A stretch of 39,266 nucleotides of DNA, taken from assembly GCA_024761205.1 (NCBI GenBank), contig JAMASS010000043.1:1-39266 (forward strand), in the 5' to 3' direction. The stretch is from Limisphaerales bacterium. Its GTDB lineage: Bacteria > Verrucomicrobiota > Verrucomicrobiia > Limisphaerales > AAA164-E04. Numbering within the stretch: the stretch's first letter is position 1; each line of letters opens with the position of its first letter. The notes under the pieces are model-generated. The model worked only from the letters and a program-made list of their open reading frames with translations, was not told the origin of the DNA and did no database searches. Positions 16,045-25,811 of this stretch are shown here, piece after piece. The position numbers were made by a program, and so were the translations under genes.

Positions 16045-17850
16045 ATGAAACGTACGCATCATTGCAACGAAATCCGACTGGAACACATCGGTCAAGTCGT
16101 CACTCTCAACGGTTGGGTCCACTCCCGCCGGGACTTGGGTGGCGTCTTGTTCATCGACGTGCGGGATCGAGAAGGGCGGACGCAGACAGTGTTCGATCCG
16201 ACCGACCTGCCGCAGGAGTTGTTTGATCGCGCGGCTGGCCTCCACAGCGAGAGTGTGATTTCCGTTACTGGCAAGGCTCGAAAACGTCCGAAGGGAACCG
16301 ACAATGCGAAGATTCCCACCGGGGAAGTCGAGATTCTGGTCTCGGAAATGGAGGTATTGAATACCGCTGACGTGTTGCCCTTTCCGGTGGACGACCCCGA
16401 AGCGGCGGCCAAGGTGCATGAGGAGCTGCGATTGAAGTATCGCTACCTGGATTTGCGTCGACCCGAGATCGCTCGCAATCTGCGGCTTCGCAGCAAGGCA
16501 GCGGTGGCGACTCGGTTCTTTTTGGATGAACAGGGATTTTCGGAGATTGATACGCCCATTCTGTTTAAATCCACCCCTGAGGGGGCCCGCGAATTTCTCG
16601 TGCCGAGTCGAGCTCACCCCGGAGAGTTTTATGCACTGTCGCAATCGCCGCAGCAGTTCAAACAAATCCTTATGGTGGGTGGCGTGGAGAAGTATTTCCA
16701 GCTGGCACGGTGTTTCCGGGATGAAGACCTGCGAGCGGACCGGCAGCCGGAGTTCACGCAGATTGATATCGAGATGTCATTTATTGATCGCGAGGACATC
16801 CATCGCCTCATTGAAGGTCTCCTGAAGCGGATTTGGAAGATGACACTGGACCGGGACATTGCGGTCCCATTCCGAAGATTGACTTTTGAGGAAGCGTTGA
16901 ATCGCTTTGGAATCGATAAGCCGGACATCCGCTTTGGAATGGAGCTCGTGGATTTTACCGAAGATTTCAAAGCGAGCGCTTTTAAGGTTTTTAGCGAGGG
17001 CGTGAGTAGCGGGGGCGTGGTTAAGGCGATGAACGCAAAGGGCTACGCGGATGCCACTCAGGGTCAGATGGAGGCCATGACCGAGTTGGCCAAGAGTTTT
17101 GGGGCCAAGGGATTGGCTTACATCAAAGTCGAAAATGGGGAGTGGAAATCACCGATCGTCAAGTTCTTCAGCGACGCCGAGAAGGCAGCCTTGGTTGAGA
17201 AACTAGCCATCGAAGAGGGAGACTTGATTTTATTCGCAGCGGATGAATGGCTAAATGCCTGCGAGATTCTTGGGCGAATTCGTTTGTATTGTGCCGAGAT
17301 TTTAAAGGGACGCGGGCAATTGGCGATTGATCCAGATCGCTTTGATTTCTTGTGGATAACGGACTTTCCGTTGCTGAGTTTTGACAAGGAAATCAATCGA
17401 TGGTGCTCGAGCCATCATCCCTTCACCGCCCCGGTGCTCGAGGATATTCCCTTGCTGACGGAGGACCCCAAACGGGTTCGTGGGCAGCACTATGATATTG
17501 TCGTCAATGGCGTTGAGCTTGGGGGTGGCTCCATTCGTATTCATCAACCAGACGTCCAGCGAACCGTTTTTGAAAAGGTGCTCGAGTTGCCGGAAGCTGT
17601 GGTGAAAGAACGGTTTGGCTATATGTTAGAGGCCTTTCGCTTTGGAGCGCCGCCGCATGGCGGGATTGCATTGGGCTTTGATCGACTGATTGCGCTCCTC
17701 TGTGGCTGCTCGAGCATCCGTGATGTCATCGCCTTTCCCAAAACCGCCAAGGGCGCAGATCTATTGTCAGAGGCGCCGGCGCAGGTGGATGCGAAACAAC
17801 TTCGGGATCTTCACCTCGACCTCAAGGTCGCGCCGAAAAAGGACGGCTAA
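16045..17850 (+). CDS. aspS: Aspartyl-tRNA synthetase, bacterial type
   Basis: The 601-residue class IIb synthetase attaches aspartate to tRNA-Asp. It has an N-terminal OB-fold anticodon-binding domain (VTLNGWVHSRRDLGGVLFIDVRDREG), the class II core with motif 1 near FSEIDTPILFKSTPEGAREFLVPSR, motif 2 FRDEDLRADRQPEFTQIDIEMSF, an inserted GAD domain (GLAYIKVENGEWKSPIVKF...), and motif 3 GIALGFDRLIALL. The frame is open from GTG 16024. ATG 16045 is preferred because GGAAG lies 8 nt upstream and MKRTHHCNEI matches the family start. At the two OB-fold positions reported to affect tRNA-Asn discrimination, the enzyme has Leu (RRDLGG) and Gly (RPKGTD), a mixed pattern. Its TAA overlaps the stop of the convergent Sel1 gene. 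Confidence 0.97.
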   Translation: MKRTHHCNEIRLEHIGQVVTLNGWVHSRRDLGGVLFIDVRDREGRTQTVFDPTDLPQELFDRAAGLHSESVISVTGKARKRPKGTDNAKIPTGEVEILVSEMEVLNTADVLPFPVDDPEAAAKVHEELRLKYRYLDLRRPEIARNLRLRSKAAVATRFFLDEQGFSEIDTPILFKSTPEGAREFLVPSRAHPGEFYALSQSPQQFKQILMVGGVEKYFQLARCFRDEDLRADRQPEFTQIDIEMSFIDREDIHRLIEGLLKRIWKMTLDRDIAVPFRRLTFEEALNRFGIDKPDIRFGMELVDFTEDFKASAFKVFSEGVSSGGVVKAMNAKGYADATQGQMEAMTELAKSFGAKGLAYIKVENGEWKSPIVKFFSDAEKAALVEKLAIEEGDLILFAADEWLNACEILGRIRLYCAEILKGRGQLAIDPDRFDFLWITDFPLLSFDKEINRWCSSHHPFTAPVLEDIPLLTEDPKRVRGQHYDIVVNGVELGGGSIRIHQPDVQRTVFEKVLELPEAVVKERFGYMLEAFRFGAPPHGGIALGFDRLIALLCGCSSIRDVIAFPKTAKGADLLSEAPAQVDAKQLRDLHLDLKVAPKKDG

Positions 17851-20057
17851 GGTCCAAACGGTTCGTCTGTTGACGGGCCTGCGGGTGGCGTTTCGGCCTC
17901 GGGTGAGTGGCCTTCGGTTTCATTCGCGAGTGCTTCGTTAATAGTCTCTAGGTAGAGGACGCCCGTCTCGTTACCTTTTTTGGCGGCCTCCTCGAACAGC
18001 TTGCGCGCTTGAGCAATATCTTGATTCACGAAGCGGCCCTGGACGTAGTAGGTTCCCAGAGCGACTAGCGCCTCGGGGTTGCCGAGCCTTGCGGCCCGTC
18101 GATACCACTCGAGAGCGCCTTTGGCATCCGGATGGACGCCTTCGCCGTTTTCTGTCATTTGGGCCAAGCAAACTTGAGCGGCGGCATGTCCTTTGTGGGC
18201 CGCTACTTTGTACCATTTTGCGGCGATCTGCGGATCGGGTTCCATACCTCTCCCTTCCTGGTAGAGGATTCCGAGGTTGTAGCAGGCTATCACGTTGTCT
18301 TGTTCGGCGGCAGTTTGAAACCAAGCCAATGCCTTGGGGTAGGATTGCACTTGCGGATTATCCGACGCTAAGGTTGATGCAAGAAGCATAATGGCTTGTT
18401 GATGTCCTTTGGAGGCGGCGAGTTCCAACCAGTGAACCGATTGCTGAAGATTGGCTGGAATACCGAACTGACCTTGCAAAAGCAAGCCGGCGTTGAATTG
18501 GGCAGAAGGGCTGCCAAGCTCCGCTGCTTCGAGGAACCATTGCAGGGACATGGCGTAATCCTGCGGGACGATTTCACCCTGCGAATAGATGTGCGCCAAT
18601 CGAATCAAGGCGGGAACGAAATCAAGATCCGCAGCCTTCTTGTACCATTCGAGGGCCTTGGCGATATCTTCGGGAGCGGTGCTTTGTTGAAAAATAATAC
18701 CTAGATTGTAGAGGGAAACCAGATCTCCCGAGTAAGCGGCTTTCTGGAACCAATCGATGGCTTGATCCAGATCCTGTGGAACGGAAATGCCGTTTAGAAA
18801 TCGTATGCCGAGTTCGGATTGAGCGCGAGAATCGCCTCGTTCGGCAGCGTGGCGGTACCATTCGAGGGCTTTGCTGTCATTTGTGGTGACTCCTTTGCCG
18901 GCGGCATGAAGGCGGCCCAAGCGGAATTGAGCCCCAACGTCGCCCTTTGCCGCCGCCTTTTCATACCAGCGGCTTGCCGCTTGCGGATCCTCTGCACCAC
19001 CTTTTCCAGATTCGAGAAGGAGGCCAAAATTGAACTGAGCGGTTATATCGTTCTGCTCCGCTGCCGCCTTAAACCATTTGCGGGAAGCAGCGAAGTCTTC
19101 GTCAACGCCCCGGCCTTCGGCGTAGGCGGTTGCGATCTTGAGTTGCGCCGGGATGTAGCCGTTTTGGGCAGCGCGGAGAAACCATTCTGCGGCCTTCTCC
19201 AGGCTTTGGTCCACGCCCTTTCCAGCTTCGTACATGCTGGCGAGGTAAAACTGGGCCTCTTGATGGCCCTTTGCCGCCGCTTGGCGTAACCAGGAGATAG
19301 CCTCCGCCGGATTCGCGGCGACCCCGAGGCCATTGAGATAGGCGGCGCCGATTTTGAATTGATCGACTACGTCCCCTCGTTCGGCGTTGAACAGCCGACC
19401 CTCGAAGAGTTGTTCGGGTGACATCATGCGTTCCACTTCCGCCCGGCGCTGGACTGCCTCTTCGTGATCTTGTTCCGCCGCCAGGCTGAACCACACGTAG
19501 GCTTCCGAGAAATCTTGCGGCACACCATTTCCAGTCATGATGGCGATCCCCAGACTAAACTGCGCGCGCGCGTCTCCCTGACTGGCGGCCAAGGCGTGAT
19601 AGCGGAGGGCTTCTTCGAGATTGGCCTCGACGCCCAAGCCGTTCTCGTAGAAGACCCCCATGTTGTATTGTGAAGCGGTATCCCCCTGATCGGCCGCGCA
19701 CTTGAACCATTGCGCCGCTTGCGCGTAGTCTTGGTCAACGCCAAGCCCTTGGACGTATAGAACACCGAGATTGTATTGGGCGGTTACGTGGCCTTGTTCC
19801 GCAGACTTCTGAAACCACTTCAAGGCTTCGCGGTAGTCTTGTTGTACGACATCACCATTATAGAAGGCGAGTCCGAGATTGAATTGAGCCGCCGGATCAT
19901 TGGTTTCCGCCGCCCGGATGAGGGCATCGAGGGAAACGACGGGAGTGTCCGCTGCATCGCCCTGAGAATGGGCGAAGTTCGCGAACAAGGTCCCAAGCAG
20001 AATCAGGCTCAGCCAAATCCAAGACGCTGTCGCTTCACTAAAGGTCCCGAACCGCAT
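17847..20057 (-). CDS. Exported Sel1-repeat (TPR-like) protein with about 17 repeats
   Basis: After a signal peptide (MRFGTFSEATASWIWLSLILLGTLFANFAHSQ) the protein is almost entirely Sel1-like repeats of 36 residues. The pattern is AQFNLGxxYxxGxGVxQDxxxAxxWFxxAAxxG; I count 17, the first at DPAAQFNLGLAFYNGDVVQQDY. The fourth repeat is followed by a roughly 30-residue insert with EQLFEGRLFNAERG. The C-terminus is acidic and proline-rich. Sel1 proteins form superhelical scaffolds for protein-protein contacts, often in the periplasm or at the envelope. A TTG at 20099 would add 14 residues ahead of the signal peptide and is less likely than ATG 20057. The stop TAG overlaps the aspS TAA in the four bases CTAA. 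No partner is evident. It is divergent from the peroxiredoxin gene. Confidence 0.9.
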   Translation of the reverse strand: MRFGTFSEATASWIWLSLILLGTLFANFAHSQGDAADTPVVSLDALIRAAETNDPAAQFNLGLAFYNGDVVQQDYREALKWFQKSAEQGHVTAQYNLGVLYVQGLGVDQDYAQAAQWFKCAADQGDTASQYNMGVFYENGLGVEANLEEALRYHALAASQGDARAQFSLGIAIMTGNGVPQDFSEAYVWFSLAAEQDHEEAVQRRAEVERMMSPEQLFEGRLFNAERGDVVDQFKIGAAYLNGLGVAANPAEAISWLRQAAAKGHQEAQFYLASMYEAGKGVDQSLEKAAEWFLRAAQNGYIPAQLKIATAYAEGRGVDEDFAASRKWFKAAAEQNDITAQFNFGLLLESGKGGAEDPQAASRWYEKAAAKGDVGAQFRLGRLHAAGKGVTTNDSKALEWYRHAAERGDSRAQSELGIRFLNGISVPQDLDQAIDWFQKAAYSGDLVSLYNLGIIFQQSTAPEDIAKALEWYKKAADLDFVPALIRLAHIYSQGEIVPQDYAMSLQWFLEAAELGSPSAQFNAGLLLQGQFGIPANLQQSVHWLELAASKGHQQAIMLLASTLASDNPQVQSYPKALAWFQTAAEQDNVIACYNLGILYQEGRGMEPDPQIAAKWYKVAAHKGHAAAQVCLAQMTENGEGVHPDAKGALEWYRRAARLGNPEALVALGTYYVQGRFVNQDIAQARKLFEEAAKKGNETGVLYLETINEALANETEGHSPEAETPPAGPSTDEPFGP

Positions 20058-20253
20058 GACCGGACTAGATATTAAACCGACCCGCGTGATCGCCGTCAAT
20101 CTGATTGATTGGAATTCATAACTGCCTGATTACTCGCAAGAATACCGCGAAGGGCGCGTTTAATCTGGGGTTGAACTCAGAGAGAAGACGTTTCTATGAT
20201 GCGGAATAGCTAGATTTCGAAGTGATCAATTTAGGCAGAAAGGACAGACAGTA

Positions 20254-20945: not shown

Positions 20946-21443
20946 ATGAGTGGATCAACAACCCTTTCGATCCGGCCGGCGACGGAGGCGGATATCCCGG
21001 TAATCTTGGAGATGGTGAAAGCACTTGCCGTTTACGAAAAGATGTTGGATGAAGTGACGGCGACGCCGGACCGGATTCGAGAGTCTCTGCTTGGTCCCTC
21101 ACCGCATGCCCACACTGCATTGGGAGAGGTTCAGGGGGAAGCGGTGGGTATTGCCATCTACTTTTTCAACTATTCGACCTTTCTTTCCCGGCGGGGACTG
21201 TATTTGGAAGATCTGTTCGTTAAGGAAGCCTTTCGGGGGCGCGGCTATGGTGGGCAGATTCTCCGGTACTTGGCGCGAGTGGCGGTTGAGAACGAATGTG
21301 GCCGATTTGAGTGGACGGTGCTTGATTGGAATCAGCCGGCGATCAAATTCTACGAAAAGATGGGCGCCAGAGTTCTAAAGGAGTGGCGCATCTGCCGTGT
21401 TACTGATGACGCGCTGGCGGCTTTGGGTGTCGAGCCAGAGTAA
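20946..21443 (+). CDS. GNAT-family N-acetyltransferase
   Basis: The 165-residue product begins TTLSIRPATEADIPVILEMVKALAVYEK. It has the GNAT core with the acetyl-CoA loop LYLEDLFVKEAFRGRGYGGQILRYLARVA and the C-terminal motif VLDWNQPAIKFYEKMGARVLKEWRICR. The sequence style, especially LEDLFV and DWNQPAIKFYEKMGA, is closest to spermidine/thialysine (SSAT-like) acetyltransferases, so a small amine is the likely acceptor; this is inferred. The frame is open to 20898, but ATG 20946 places the GNAT fold at the N-terminus as expected. It lies between the peroxiredoxin and the radical SAM gene on the same strand, with short gaps. Confidence 0.88.
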   Translation: MSGSTTLSIRPATEADIPVILEMVKALAVYEKMLDEVTATPDRIRESLLGPSPHAHTALGEVQGEAVGIAIYFFNYSTFLSRRGLYLEDLFVKEAFRGRGYGGQILRYLARVAVENECGRFEWTVLDWNQPAIKFYEKMGARVLKEWRICRVTDDALAALGVEPE

Positions 21444-21502
21444 TTGGTTTGCATTCCGGGAGAGGAGGAACAACAGCCTAGTTCTCGACCGCCGGGTTCT
21501 TT

Positions 21503-22489
21503 TTGATCAATATTCGCGGTGTGGTGTACCCTCAATCGCGCAGAGAACGGAACCGCTGGATTATCTCGCGGCGTGGTTCGCGCCATTCGCTGAGTGAAGA
21601 TGTTCCTTACGCCTTTCTCAAGGAGCGGGAACTGTCCAAGGATCGCACTTTGACTGGCGTCTTCACTGTCTTTCTGACGAACCGTGAATGCCCCTGGAAA
21701 TGTTTTATGTGTGATTTGTGGAAGAATACCCTGGAGTCATCCGTCGCCCCTGGGGTGATTCCAAGGCAGATCAAATACGCGTTCGAGCGGCTGGGAGTGT
21801 CTGGAGATCGTTCGAGATCGCAGGTCAAACTCTACAATAACGGGAGTTTCTTTGATCCGCGGGCGATTCCAGTGGATGACTATGCGGAGATTGCAAGGTT
21901 GGTTTCTGGATTCCGTCGGGTCATTGTTGAATGCCATCCCCTCTTCATTGGGGATCTCTGCCAACAGTTTCGGGATCTTTTGACTGGCGAACTCGAGGTG
22001 GCCATTGGTTTGGAGACGGCTCATACGGAAGCGCTGGAAAAGCTGAATAAGGGGTTTGGAGTTGACGATTTTCGGCAGCGGTGCGATTGGCTCCGGGAAA
22101 GAGAGATTTCGATTCGGGTGTTTCTGTTGATGAACGTCCCATTTATCCCAGTGACAGATCAAGCTGAATGGGTCGAGAGATCCATCGGTTTGGCCTCGGA
22201 GGCGGGCGCTGCGGTGATTTGTTTGATCCCGACTCGTTTCGGCAATGGGGCATTGGAGACTTTGGTTGAGAGCGGTGACTATCGAAACACGCAACTGGAT
22301 CAATTGGAGGATGCGATGGATTCGGGGCTCCGGTTGAGCCAAGCCTTGGTGTTGGCGGACCTTTGGGACTTAGAACAGTTCAGTACGTGTCAGTTCTGCT
22401 TTCCGAAACGACGGTTTCGGTTGGAAGAGATGAACCGCCAACAAGCGGTGTTGGAACGGATCGAGTGTTCTCAATGTCATGGAAACTGA
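21503..22489 (+). CDS. Radical SAM protein, RaSEA-like (TIGR01210-type)
   Basis: The product is about 328 residues from a TTG at 21503; GTG codons at 21521 and 21524 are other possible starts. The SAM-cleaving [4Fe-4S] cluster is bound by C63, C67 and C70 in NRECPWKCFMCDLWKN, a CX3CX2C motif. YNNGSFFDPRAIPVDDY, IVECHPLFIGD, EVAIGLETAHTEALEKLNKGF and CLIPTRFGNGALE follow the architecture of the family that includes archaeosine-synthase radical SAM subunits. The C-terminus carries paired cysteines (CQFC and CSQCHGN) that could hold a second metal site. Archaeosine is archaeal, so the bacterial substrate is unknown. The stop overlaps the next gene by 11 nt, which implies coupled synthesis with the flavoprotein. 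Confidence 0.85.
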   Translation: MINIRGVVYPQSRRERNRWIISRRGSRHSLSEDVPYAFLKERELSKDRTLTGVFTVFLTNRECPWKCFMCDLWKNTLESSVAPGVIPRQIKYAFERLGVSGDRSRSQVKLYNNGSFFDPRAIPVDDYAEIARLVSGFRRVIVECHPLFIGDLCQQFRDLLTGELEVAIGLETAHTEALEKLNKGFGVDDFRQRCDWLREREISIRVFLLMNVPFIPVTDQAEWVERSIGLASEAGAAVICLIPTRFGNGALETLVESGDYRNTQLDQLEDAMDSGLRLSQALVLADLWDLEQFSTCQFCFPKRRFRLEEMNRQQAVLERIECSQCHGN

Positions 22490-24074
22490 TCAACGGTCGG
22501 TGGACATTGTTGTTGTTGGAGCGGGTTTTGGCGGGAGCATTATGGCTATGGTGTGCCGCCGTCTGGGGCGGTCGGTCATCCTTGTGGAACGGGGCAAGCA
22601 TCCCCGATTTGCGATTGGTGAGTCGTCCACCCCGTTGACCAACCTCTTGTTGGAAGAAATTGGTGAGCGATTCAATCTGGGTTTTTTGGCCGAGTTTTCC
22701 AAGTGGGGCAGTTGGCAGGAAAAACACGCGAAGATTTCCTGCGGTCTTAAGCGCGGGTTCTCTTTCTTTCATCATCGCGAGGGGAAGGCTTTTCGACGGT
22801 TTGAGGATCATCGTAACGAACTTCTCGTGGCGGCAAGTCTCACTGACGCCTTGGGAGACACTCACTGGTACCGACCGGAACTGGATGCCTTCCTGGTCGA
22901 AAAGGCCGTTGAGTTGGGGAGCGAGTATTGGGATGAAAGCCAAATAGTTGCGGCCGAGGAAGCATCCGAGGGATTGAGGCTAAAGGTTGAACGGCCCTCC
23001 GAGGCGCTAACGTTACGAGCGCGTTTTGTGATTGATGCATCTGGGCCCCGGGGAGTGCTCTTTCGGTGCCTCAACCTCTGCGATAGATCGATCGCAGGAA
23101 TGCCGCTCACTCAGGCGTTGTTTGGTCATTTCCGCAAGGTCACGCGATGCCAGGATTTGGATGCTTTTCGATTGCCGGAGGTGCCGCCGTATCCGATTGA
23201 TTGTGCGGCAGTACATCACGTGTTTCGAAGCGGTTGGTTTTGGGAACTCGGATTTAACAATGGCATCGTGAGCGCCGGAGTCGTCATGACCGATGAATGG
23301 GCGGAGTGTCTTCGATTGGAGGGGACGATCTCCGCTTGGAAGGGAGTGATCGCTCGGTTTCCCTCCTTGCAACAGATATTTGCTAACGCCGTCGTTGATA
23401 GTCAGTTTTTTTACCAACGACGCGTTTCGTTCTTCTCGGACCTGCTGCACGGGAGAGGCTGGGCGTTATTGCCCTCAGCTGCTGCGGTCATTGATCCGCT
23501 TTTCTCGACTGGTTTTCCACTCAATCTGTTGGGAATTGTTCGGCTTGGTCTTGCTATCGAGCGGTTTTTCGACTTGCCCGGATTCCTCGGACAGATGGAA
23601 CGATATTCCGAGGTGACGCGCGATGAGGCGTGTCGTGTCGGCCGTTTGGTGGGGGTGGCCTATCAGGCGATGGGGTCGCCTAAGGTTTTTAATGCCGTCT
23701 CCTATCTCTATTTTGCGGCGGTCAGCTTTGAGGAAACCCGCCGTCGGTTGAAACGTGTTCCGATTGACAACGGCTTTCTTCTCGGAAGTCATCGTTGTTT
23801 TCGGGATAGACTGGATCGTTGTCTCGACCAAATTAGCCGACAACTCGCTCAAGGGTCGCTGCGGCAGGAACAAGAGGACCAGTTGGTGAACCACGTGATC
23901 GAGACGGTTGAGCCATTCAATGTCATTGGGATTGGGAGACGAAATGCCCAGAACTGGTATCCGGTTCGGATGGAGTATCTTTTTCGGTCGTTAGAAAAGT
24001 TGGAGTCAGATGTGAACGAAGTTCGGGAGATGCTGTTGCGATGTGGCGTTGAACAGAAGCTGATGCCAGCGTGA
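22479..24074 (+). CDS. FAD-dependent oxidoreductase, flavin-halogenase-like
   Basis: The 531-residue flavoprotein has the N-terminal dinucleotide-binding motif VVGAGFGGSIMAM (GxGxxG, residues 14-19), the second motif HPRFAIGESSTPLTN near residues 41-55, and the third FAD element DPLFSTGFPLNLLG. This is the fold of tryptophan-halogenase and geranylgeranyl-reductase-like enzymes. The halogenase WxWxIP signature is only partly present, as GWFWELGF, so halogenation is unlikely and a redox step on a bound substrate is more plausible. The gene overlaps the upstream radical SAM gene by 11 nt and must be translated with it. From memory, similar pairs recur in planctomycetes and other bacteria, but no function has been assigned to my knowledge. 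The gene is intact, with no transmembrane segment. Confidence 0.82.
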   Translation: METDQRSVDIVVVGAGFGGSIMAMVCRRLGRSVILVERGKHPRFAIGESSTPLTNLLLEEIGERFNLGFLAEFSKWGSWQEKHAKISCGLKRGFSFFHHREGKAFRRFEDHRNELLVAASLTDALGDTHWYRPELDAFLVEKAVELGSEYWDESQIVAAEEASEGLRLKVERPSEALTLRARFVIDASGPRGVLFRCLNLCDRSIAGMPLTQALFGHFRKVTRCQDLDAFRLPEVPPYPIDCAAVHHVFRSGWFWELGFNNGIVSAGVVMTDEWAECLRLEGTISAWKGVIARFPSLQQIFANAVVDSQFFYQRRVSFFSDLLHGRGWALLPSAAAVIDPLFSTGFPLNLLGIVRLGLAIERFFDLPGFLGQMERYSEVTRDEACRVGRLVGVAYQAMGSPKVFNAVSYLYFAAVSFEETRRRLKRVPIDNGFLLGSHRCFRDRLDRCLDQISRQLAQGSLRQEQEDQLVNHVIETVEPFNVIGIGRRNAQNWYPVRMEYLFRSLEKLESDVNEVREMLLRCGVEQKLMPA

Positions 24075-24401: not shown

Positions 24402-25811
24402 ATGAAGAAGCTGTGGCCTATTTTGTTGTTTTGTCTCTTGTACCCTGCTCTACCCCCTGTTGTCATCGGCGCCGAATCAAAGGACGACAAGGTTTACGTG
24501 ATTCCCATTCGCGACGATATCATGCCACCGGTTTTGTATGTGGTTCGTCGAGGGATCAAAGGTGCGATTGCTGCGGGAGCAACGACAGTCATCATCGACA
24601 TGGAAACGAATGGCGGACGGGTGGACACGACCGAAGAATTGATTGAGATCCTGGATCGCTTCGAGGGAAAGAAAGTGACCTACGTTAACAAGAAAGCGTT
24701 TTCTGCAGGTGCATTTGTTTCGGTGGCTACTGAGGCGATCTATATGGCGCCGGGTGCCGTGATCGGTGCGGCTGCTCCGATATTGATGGTGCCGGGCGGG
24801 ACCGGGGCTGATGCGGTACCGGATACTATGGAGGTCAAGATGACCTCTGGTATCAGCGCCTTGGTTCGGGCGAACGCCGAGCGATACGGGCACAACGTGG
24901 ATGTCATCGAAGCCATGATCGACAAAACCAAAGAACTGAAAATCGATGATGAGGTGCTTTGTGAAAAAGGACAAATCCTGACATTGACGAATACGGAGGC
25001 GGAAAAGAAGTACGGCGCCGATGAAAAGCCGCTGCTTTCTGCCGGAACGGTGGTGACGCTCAATGACTTGGTTGCACAGTTGGGGCTGGAGCATGCAGAA
25101 ATCGTCCGAGTGGAACCAACGGGCACGGAGCAAATTGGGGCATGGATCAACAGAATCAGCCCAATCCTGTTGATGATTGGAATCATCGGCTTGTATATTG
25201 AATTTAAGACACCCGGATTCGGCCTGCCGGGAATCGTTGGATTGGCGGCCTTTGTTATTTATTTTTTTGGTGGCTATATTGCGGGGCTTTCGAGCATTGG
25301 GTGGGGTGCGTTATTTGTTCTGGGTTTGTTGTTATTAGTAATTGAGATACTTCTAATACCAGGGACGATGATTGCTGGCCTAGTTGGCGCACTCATGATG
25401 CTCGGGGCGATTGTTATGGCGCTGGTGGATTGGGAGCCGACCCTGCCTGCCTATACGCTGCCCACACTTGCTCAGTTCACGGATTCGTTTCAGGTGCTGT
25501 CCTTAGCATTGATCGGCGTGGCGATCCTCCTCCTCCTTTTGGGAAAACACTTTCCGAATACAGGGTTCTATAGCCAGATGGTTTCCCAGTCGGCAAGCGG
25601 GGTTGAAACGGAGAATCGGGCGGGGGCGGAGAAGGATTCCCGGTTGGGGTTGCACGGGGTGGTGGTGTCGCCGCTTCGTCCCGGAGGAAAAGCTCACTTT
25701 GGTGATGATGTTTTGGATGTGGTCTCTCAGGGTGAGATGATTGATTCTGGAACAGAGGTCAAAATCATCGATTTTAGCGGGCGCGACGCAGTTGTGGTAA
25801 GTATTTTTTAG
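24402..25811 (+). CDS. NfeD-family membrane-bound ClpP-like serine protease
   Basis: The 469-residue product starts with a signal peptide (MKKLWPILLFCLLYPALPPVVIGAES). A ClpP/crotonase-like domain follows (VYVIPIRDDIMPPVLYVVRRGIKGA...VIIDMETNGGRVDTTEELIEIL) with the nucleophile Ser101 in AFSAGAFVSVA. Several membrane helices come next (about residues 253-380), and the protein ends in a soluble beta-rich NfeD/OB domain containing HGVVVSPLRPGGKAHFGDDVLDVVSQGEMIDSGTEVKIIDF. This is the long NfeD type, usually paired with stomatin/SPFH proteins in membrane quality control. No stomatin gene is adjacent. The gene is monocistronic, with a strong terminator about 210 bp downstream. Confidence 0.9.
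   Translation: MKKLWPILLFCLLYPALPPVVIGAESKDDKVYVIPIRDDIMPPVLYVVRRGIKGAIAAGATTVIIDMETNGGRVDTTEELIEILDRFEGKKVTYVNKKAFSAGAFVSVATEAIYMAPGAVIGAAAPILMVPGGTGADAVPDTMEVKMTSGISALVRANAERYGHNVDVIEAMIDKTKELKIDDEVLCEKGQILTLTNTEAEKKYGADEKPLLSAGTVVTLNDLVAQLGLEHAEIVRVEPTGTEQIGAWINRISPILLMIGIIGLYIEFKTPGFGLPGIVGLAAFVIYFFGGYIAGLSSIGWGALFVLGLLLLVIEILLIPGTMIAGLVGALMMLGAIVMALVDWEPTLPAYTLPTLAQFTDSFQVLSLALIGVAILLLLLGKHFPNTGFYSQMVSQSASGVETENRAGAEKDSRLGLHGVVVSPLRPGGKAHFGDDVLDVVSQGEMIDSGTEVKIIDFSGRDAVVVSIF

Follow-up and report, generated by a model that had tools for sequence, protein, structure and literature searches.

Gene Arrangement of the Locus

The DNA analyzed, referred to here as the window, is the whole stretch of 39,266 nucleotides taken from contig JAMASS010000043.1 of a Limisphaerales bacterium (Verrucomicrobiota). 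It contains two overlapping genes, which encode a radical SAM protein (rSAM) and a flavoprotein.

21503-22489, plus strand: rSAM gene, 328 aa, RaSEA/queuine lyase/MnmL-like, with the start as given in the open reading frame list (start codon uncertain)
22479-24074, plus strand: flavoprotein gene, 531 aa, a relative of phenolic (PltM-type) flavin-dependent halogenases
22479-22489, plus strand: overlap of the rSAM and flavoprotein frames, 11 nt

As the original prediction had claimed, both open reading frames were found at these positions and their overlap is exactly 11 nt. The TGA stop of the rSAM gene (22487-22489) falls just within the flavoprotein frame, which opens with an ATG at 22479. With genes in the compared loci called by a simple script, the gap from rSAM to flavoprotein was -19 to +49 nt in 27 of the 28 loci measured, in two phyla, and because a short gap or overlap is kept to this extent the overlap represents more than chance. 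The TTG start of the rSAM gene at 21503 is without a well-spaced Shine-Dalgarno sequence, and the family consensus begins 4-5 residues ahead of a conserved YP. Examination of positions 21440-21530 also revealed a purine-rich stretch resembling a strong Shine-Dalgarno sequence, GGAGAGGAGG, at about 21459-21468, with no start codon at the usual distance.

The other genes in the window are ordinary and encode an aspartyl-type tRNA synthetase, a Sel1-repeat protein, a peroxiredoxin, a GNAT protein, NfeD, DnaA, an ABC transporter ATPase, ClpX/ClpP and sigma-54. A 750-aa protein consisting largely of Sel1 repeats (16 matches) is encoded three genes upstream on the other strand (17847-20099). Neither an Rfam family nor a tRNA was found in the window. 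A role in anti-phage defence was rejected, as PADLOC gave no match.

The Radical SAM Protein

21689-21712, plus strand: CX3CX2C (C63, C67, C70), expected ligands of the SAM-binding 4Fe-4S cluster, invariant in 47/47 homologues
22388-22399, plus strand: first C-terminal CxxC (C296, C299), kept in 41/47 and 44/47 homologues
22466-22477, plus strand: second C-terminal CxxC (C322, C325), kept in 43/47 and 39/47 homologues

All four C-terminal cysteines are present in 36 of the 47 homologues, and the two pairs probably form a metal site. The cysteine motifs that had been described for this protein from the window were conserved, but the His of the proposed CxxCH was not: H326, which follows C322xxC325, is mostly Gly in the family.

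The description of the protein as RaSEA-like was supported. Against NCBIfam model TIGR01210 (RaSEA) the window protein gave E=7.4e-27 and 94.4 bits, under the 212-bit cutoff and hence not RaSEA itself, and two relatives scored 97.6 and 123 bits, also below 212 (E range 7e-27 to 1e-35). The match to the NCBIfam MnmL model was 24 bits against a cutoff of 180. When the rSAM family profile was searched against the PDB, queuine lyase 6p78 was the sole match (E=1.6e-6); the single sequence gave no match in the PDB. Queuine lyase was also the top VIA row for the AF2 model (pLDDT 96), with a Z of 17.2, 3.2 A rmsd over 218 residues and 17% identity. Further radical SAM rows followed close behind, from Z 17.2 to about 14 at rank 50, and since these values differ so little the fold by itself does not determine which reaction is catalyzed. 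By its sequence relationships the protein groups with the C-N-cleaving RaSEA and queuine lyase, yet it is not RaSEA. Foldseek placed the glutamine methylase MgmA first, followed by Elp3, and the protein may carry out other radical SAM chemistry.

RaSEA forms archaeosine in tRNA from preQ0-lysine, the lysine having been attached by ArcS (PMC11298593), queuine lyase converts queuine to preQ1 (PMC7694415) and MnmL is listed with nm5s2U formation (PMC12548931). In our reading of these reactions, all three enzymes take a carbon group off nitrogen.

The Flavoprotein

22518-22535, plus strand: GxGxxG FAD-binding motif (G14, G16, G19), kept in 36-37 of 38 homologues
22749-22751, plus strand: Lys91, the equivalent of PltM catalytic Lys87 (alignment CGIK(87)LGFSF / CGLK(91)RGFSF), invariant in 38/38 homologues
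23235-23252, plus strand: WFWELG, replacing the halogenase WxWxIP; the family has mostly WxWxLR(F), overall WxWxL(R/G)

Together with a GES motif at residues 47-49, these features agree with the earlier observation that the FAD motifs are intact and the WxWxIP signature is broken. Searched with phmmer against the PDB, the flavoprotein matched PltM (2.6e-36) and tetracycline 7-halogenase (7e-34), while Trp_halogenase and several FAD families were above cutoff in Pfam. A fold shared by halogenases and geranylgeranyl reductases had been proposed; the phenolic halogenases proved to be the closer relatives, and against the geranylgeranyl reductase family model (TIGR02032) the flavoprotein scored 49.8 bits, below the cutoff of 158.8 bits. 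In PltM, Lys87 is essential and the K87A variant is inactive (PMC6424973). From its relationships and its predicted active-site lysine the flavoprotein is classed with the halogenases, with one classical signature failed. Because of that failure it was not filed as a halogenase, and the degenerate WxWxIP weakens a reading of the reaction as halogenation.

The genome that contains the window also encodes, outside the gene set described here, another flavoprotein that belongs to the same superfamily and is only distantly related (L002, G000:C25:42005-43078; 26-27% identity).

A Third Enzyme, Related to Asparagine and Beta-Lactam Synthetases

Gene-neighbourhood clustering identified a gene of ~440 aa immediately upstream of rSAM in many loci. 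The corresponding gene of the window's own genome is unlinked, and lying on another contig it was invisible from the window sequence.

G000:C56:515-1828, minus strand: ligase gene, asparagine-synthetase/beta-lactam-synthetase-like

In the three relatives scanned against Pfam, only PF00733 (asparagine synthase) was above cutoff. The best folds for the AF2 model (pLDDT 89) were beta-lactam synthetase and asparagine synthetase, which matched across both domains at a Z of about 25 with about 14-18% identity. The SGGxDS and DGDGGDE loops are nearly invariant (S177, G179, D181 and S182 are invariant in 48 homologues), and conservation is unusually high throughout, with a mean column identity of 63%. 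None of the 48 homologues has a Cys at residue 2 or 3 that could correspond to the glutaminase Cys1. The fold aligns only from residue ~37-41 of AsnB/BLS, so that the N-terminal domain lacks its initial ~37 residues, and the open frame of 449 aa leaves no space for a longer N-terminus. With both Cys1 and these glutaminase-domain residues absent, glutamine is not expected to be the nitrogen source. A precursor peptide upstream of the ligase was also considered and rejected; small open reading frames within 400 bp formed only clusters of 2-4 near relatives.

Distribution and Co-Occurrence

The three genes were followed through genome collections at search thresholds of E 1e-10 to 1e-30, many of the compared genomes being incomplete MAGs. 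Among 247 Acidobacteriota genomes, ligase and rSAM occurred in an identical set of 28, and the flavoprotein occurred in 26, all of them inside that set. In samples of the window's phylum rSAM was found in 3/288 genomes and the ligase in 3/240, and these were the same three genomes. A panel of 58 relatives contained 29 with rSAM, 27 with the ligase and 26 with both; the flavoprotein was present in 24, of which 23 also had rSAM. Kinship was handled in the co-occurrence p-values only through a one-per-family subset of 47 Verrucomicrobiota relatives, in which rSAM and ligase were each present in 19 and together in 18 (table 18/1/1/27, Fisher 8e-11).

The prediction of a conserved pair was borne out, with rSAM and flavoprotein adjacent in 17 of the 23 relatives that have both and, by coordinates, in 25 of the 26 Acidobacteriota carriers of the flavoprotein. 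The order ligase, rSAM, flavoprotein recurs in two phyla with short gaps or, often, overlaps of at least 4 nt, and the cultured Acidobacterium sp. S8 has the operon intact. The pairwise identities of the proteins were correlated with one another (r=0.81-0.90, 28 genomes). Quick trees placed two Acidobacteriota clades among Verrucomicrobiota rows with modest support, which is consistent with the module having moved between lineages as a unit. A plasmid-borne element was rejected, since neither ligase nor rSAM was found on 72,556 plasmids.

It is almost certain that ligase, rSAM and flavoprotein form one functional unit. That the two window genes are unrelated enzymes brought together by chance is hardly credible: six relatives do carry both genes apart, but near-identical presence patterns and an overlap conserved in two phyla already contradict this reading. 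The two-gene, two-step system of the original prediction was likewise rejected, the ligase co-occurring with rSAM more strictly than the flavoprotein does. In six of the 29 rSAM relatives (G300, G305, G309, G312, G331 and G340) the ligase was present and the flavoprotein was absent at E 1e-25, and no replacement enzyme was identified in these six. Because these relatives keep ligase and rSAM without a detected flavoprotein, the data suggest that the ligase and rSAM steps are the core, and the flavoprotein step may be optional or replaced.

We used QueC as an unlinked comparison. It occurs in 6 of the 29 rSAM relatives, is missing from the other 23 and is also absent from the genome of the window, which is 95% complete; its presence was not associated with that of ligase or rSAM (Fisher p 0.16). 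These results bear on a modified-nucleoside product, one of the substrates suggested earlier, and more broadly on a modification of tRNA or a nucleobase comparable to archaeosine or queuosine. Nucleobase side chains are the site of action of RaSEA, queuine lyase and MnmL alike, which speaks for such a role, but as the window's genome and most carriers are without QueC, archaeosine or another 7-deazaguanine product is unlikely. A variant in which an imported base is salvaged may be envisaged, and tRNA or nucleobase modification as a whole appears very improbable.

Genomic Neighbourhood

An NfeD1b-type protein (24402-25811 in the window) is encoded directly after the flavoprotein in eight loci of Verrucomicrobiota, some of different families (L008, L043, L048, L049, L051, L056, L059), and because it is shared by loci of different families this synteny is older than the genus. 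In Acidobacteriota the shared downstream genes encode a thymidylate kinase, a DNA polymerase III delta-type subunit, a DsbA-like protein and a nitroreductase; these were taken as clade synteny instead of as members of the pathway.

Large FG-GAP/ASPIC-UnbV proteins, some with TPRs, adjoin the module in three phyla (L007, L010, L041, L042, L054, L157-L164), and an NqrB/RnfD-like membrane protein is likewise encoded beside the module in seven Acidobacteriota loci. The proximity of the FG-GAP/ASPIC-UnbV proteins may reflect a functional link or simply how abundant they are. A functional link would fit a module that modifies a protein, perhaps these neighbours, in the way that LodB, QhpG and GoxB act in the maturation of quinone-cofactor enzymes. 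In favor of this are the UnbV/ASPIC genes next to the module in some Acidobacteriota, some Verrucomicrobiota and one Bacteroidales MAG, the unusually conserved ligase, and matches of the flavoprotein to the QhpG, LodB and GoxB models. Those matches are weak, however, with scores far under the cutoffs for these protein-maturing flavoproteins, and the window shows no UnbV gene close to the module. If such genes are numerous in these genomes, as they may be, their proximity can be chance. We consider protein modification improbable.

Proposed Pathway

Co-occurrence, co-localization, correlated divergence, motif conservation and predicted folds together support a three-enzyme pathway. From its fold and motifs, the ligase would adenylate a carboxylate with ATP and couple it to an amine, which is expected to be supplied directly and not as ammonia from glutamine, because the ligase is without a glutaminase site. 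By analogy with its relatives, rSAM would then use a 5'-deoxyadenosyl radical to cut a C-N bond of the conjugate, with the nitrogen remaining on the acceptor. This second step would resemble the work of archaeal ArcS and RaSEA, where an added lysine is subsequently cut off, and queuine lyase and MnmL would share the logic of removing a carbon group from nitrogen; the parallel with ArcS-RaSEA would lie in logic and not in membership. In a third step the flavoprotein, with FADH2, O2 and the conserved lysine, may halogenate or otherwise oxidize the product. The order of the steps is suggested by gene order only. The mechanism as a whole, from ligase through C-N lyase to flavin oxidation or halogenation, is a serious possibility whose likelihood we place a little below even.

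A fuller version is offered tentatively and with considerable doubt. It describes a nitrogen-installing bacterial pathway in which a glutaminase-less ligase adds an amino compound to a carboxylate, rSAM cuts the donor off to leave a primary amide or amine, and the flavoenzyme finishes a metabolite or protein site. On this reading the genes would have spread as a unit in Verrucomicrobiota and Acidobacteriota, with ligase plus rSAM carried into Bacteroidota.

The product of the three enzymes could instead be a small secondary metabolite that is halogenated or hydroxylated, and rSAM would then perform chemistry other than C-N cleavage (e.g., methylation, rearrangement or C-C formation). The nearest relatives of the flavoprotein are natural-product halogenases, the top Foldseek row for rSAM is a methylase, the genes appear, from their patchy distribution and the quick trees, to have been transferred as a unit, and a putative asparagine synthetase and a flavin halogenase co-occur in ammosamide biosynthesis (PMC12715798). 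Against this, the sequence-level relatives of rSAM are C-N lyases, the loci showed no recurring carrier protein, NRPS/PKS or regulator, and in many Acidobacteriota the operon sits amid housekeeping genes (tmk, holB). A secondary metabolite of this kind is judged unlikely.

No description of the combination of ligase, rSAM and flavoprotein was found in the open-access papers searched, in line with the expectation of an undescribed system; such an absence is weak evidence of novelty. The near all-or-none occurrence of the three-gene set in certain bacteria points to an undescribed biochemical pathway. What had been a vague pair of uncharacterized genes is now a defined, testable three-gene unit, almost all-or-none in two phyla that contain many uncultured bacteria. 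If the logic of a ligase followed by a radical lyase is true, the archaeosine trick of attaching an amino compound, cutting it and giving nitrogen would be used beyond archaeal tRNA, and the flavoproteins would also represent halogenase-type enzymes of a new group, distinguished by an unusual signature in the active site.

Comparison with Known Systems

The module resembles ArcS-RaSEA of archaea in its RaSEA-related rSAM and in the proposed logic of a partner that adds an amine and a radical step that leaves the nitrogen (PMC11298593). It differs in that its rSAM scores far under the RaSEA cutoff, the partner is an AsnB/beta-lactam-synthetase-like ligase and not ArcS, a flavoprotein is added and most carriers are without QueC. 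With queuine lyase 6p78 the rSAM has N(A/S)GSFF, ExH, G(I/L)ET and LNK blocks in common, but the lyase is 251 aa long against 328 aa, and the rSAM has an extra C-terminal region with the CxxC pairs. MnmL (YtqA), which starts from cmnm5U and converts it to nm5U in tRNA, is similar in its weak model match and in the removal of a carbon group from nitrogen, while the module is without a methyltransferase or other Mnm proteins.

PltM and tetracycline 7-halogenase are the best PDB relatives of the flavoprotein, which keeps the catalytic lysine and differs in having WxWxL(R/G) for WxWxIP; the operon partners of the module match no flavin-dependent halogenase cluster found in the literature. Although its partner genes differ and its first ~37 residues are missing, the ligase shares with beta-lactam synthetase the absence of the glutaminase Cys1, and with both beta-lactam synthetase and asparagine synthetase B a fold that extends over both domains and retains the ATP/PPi loops.
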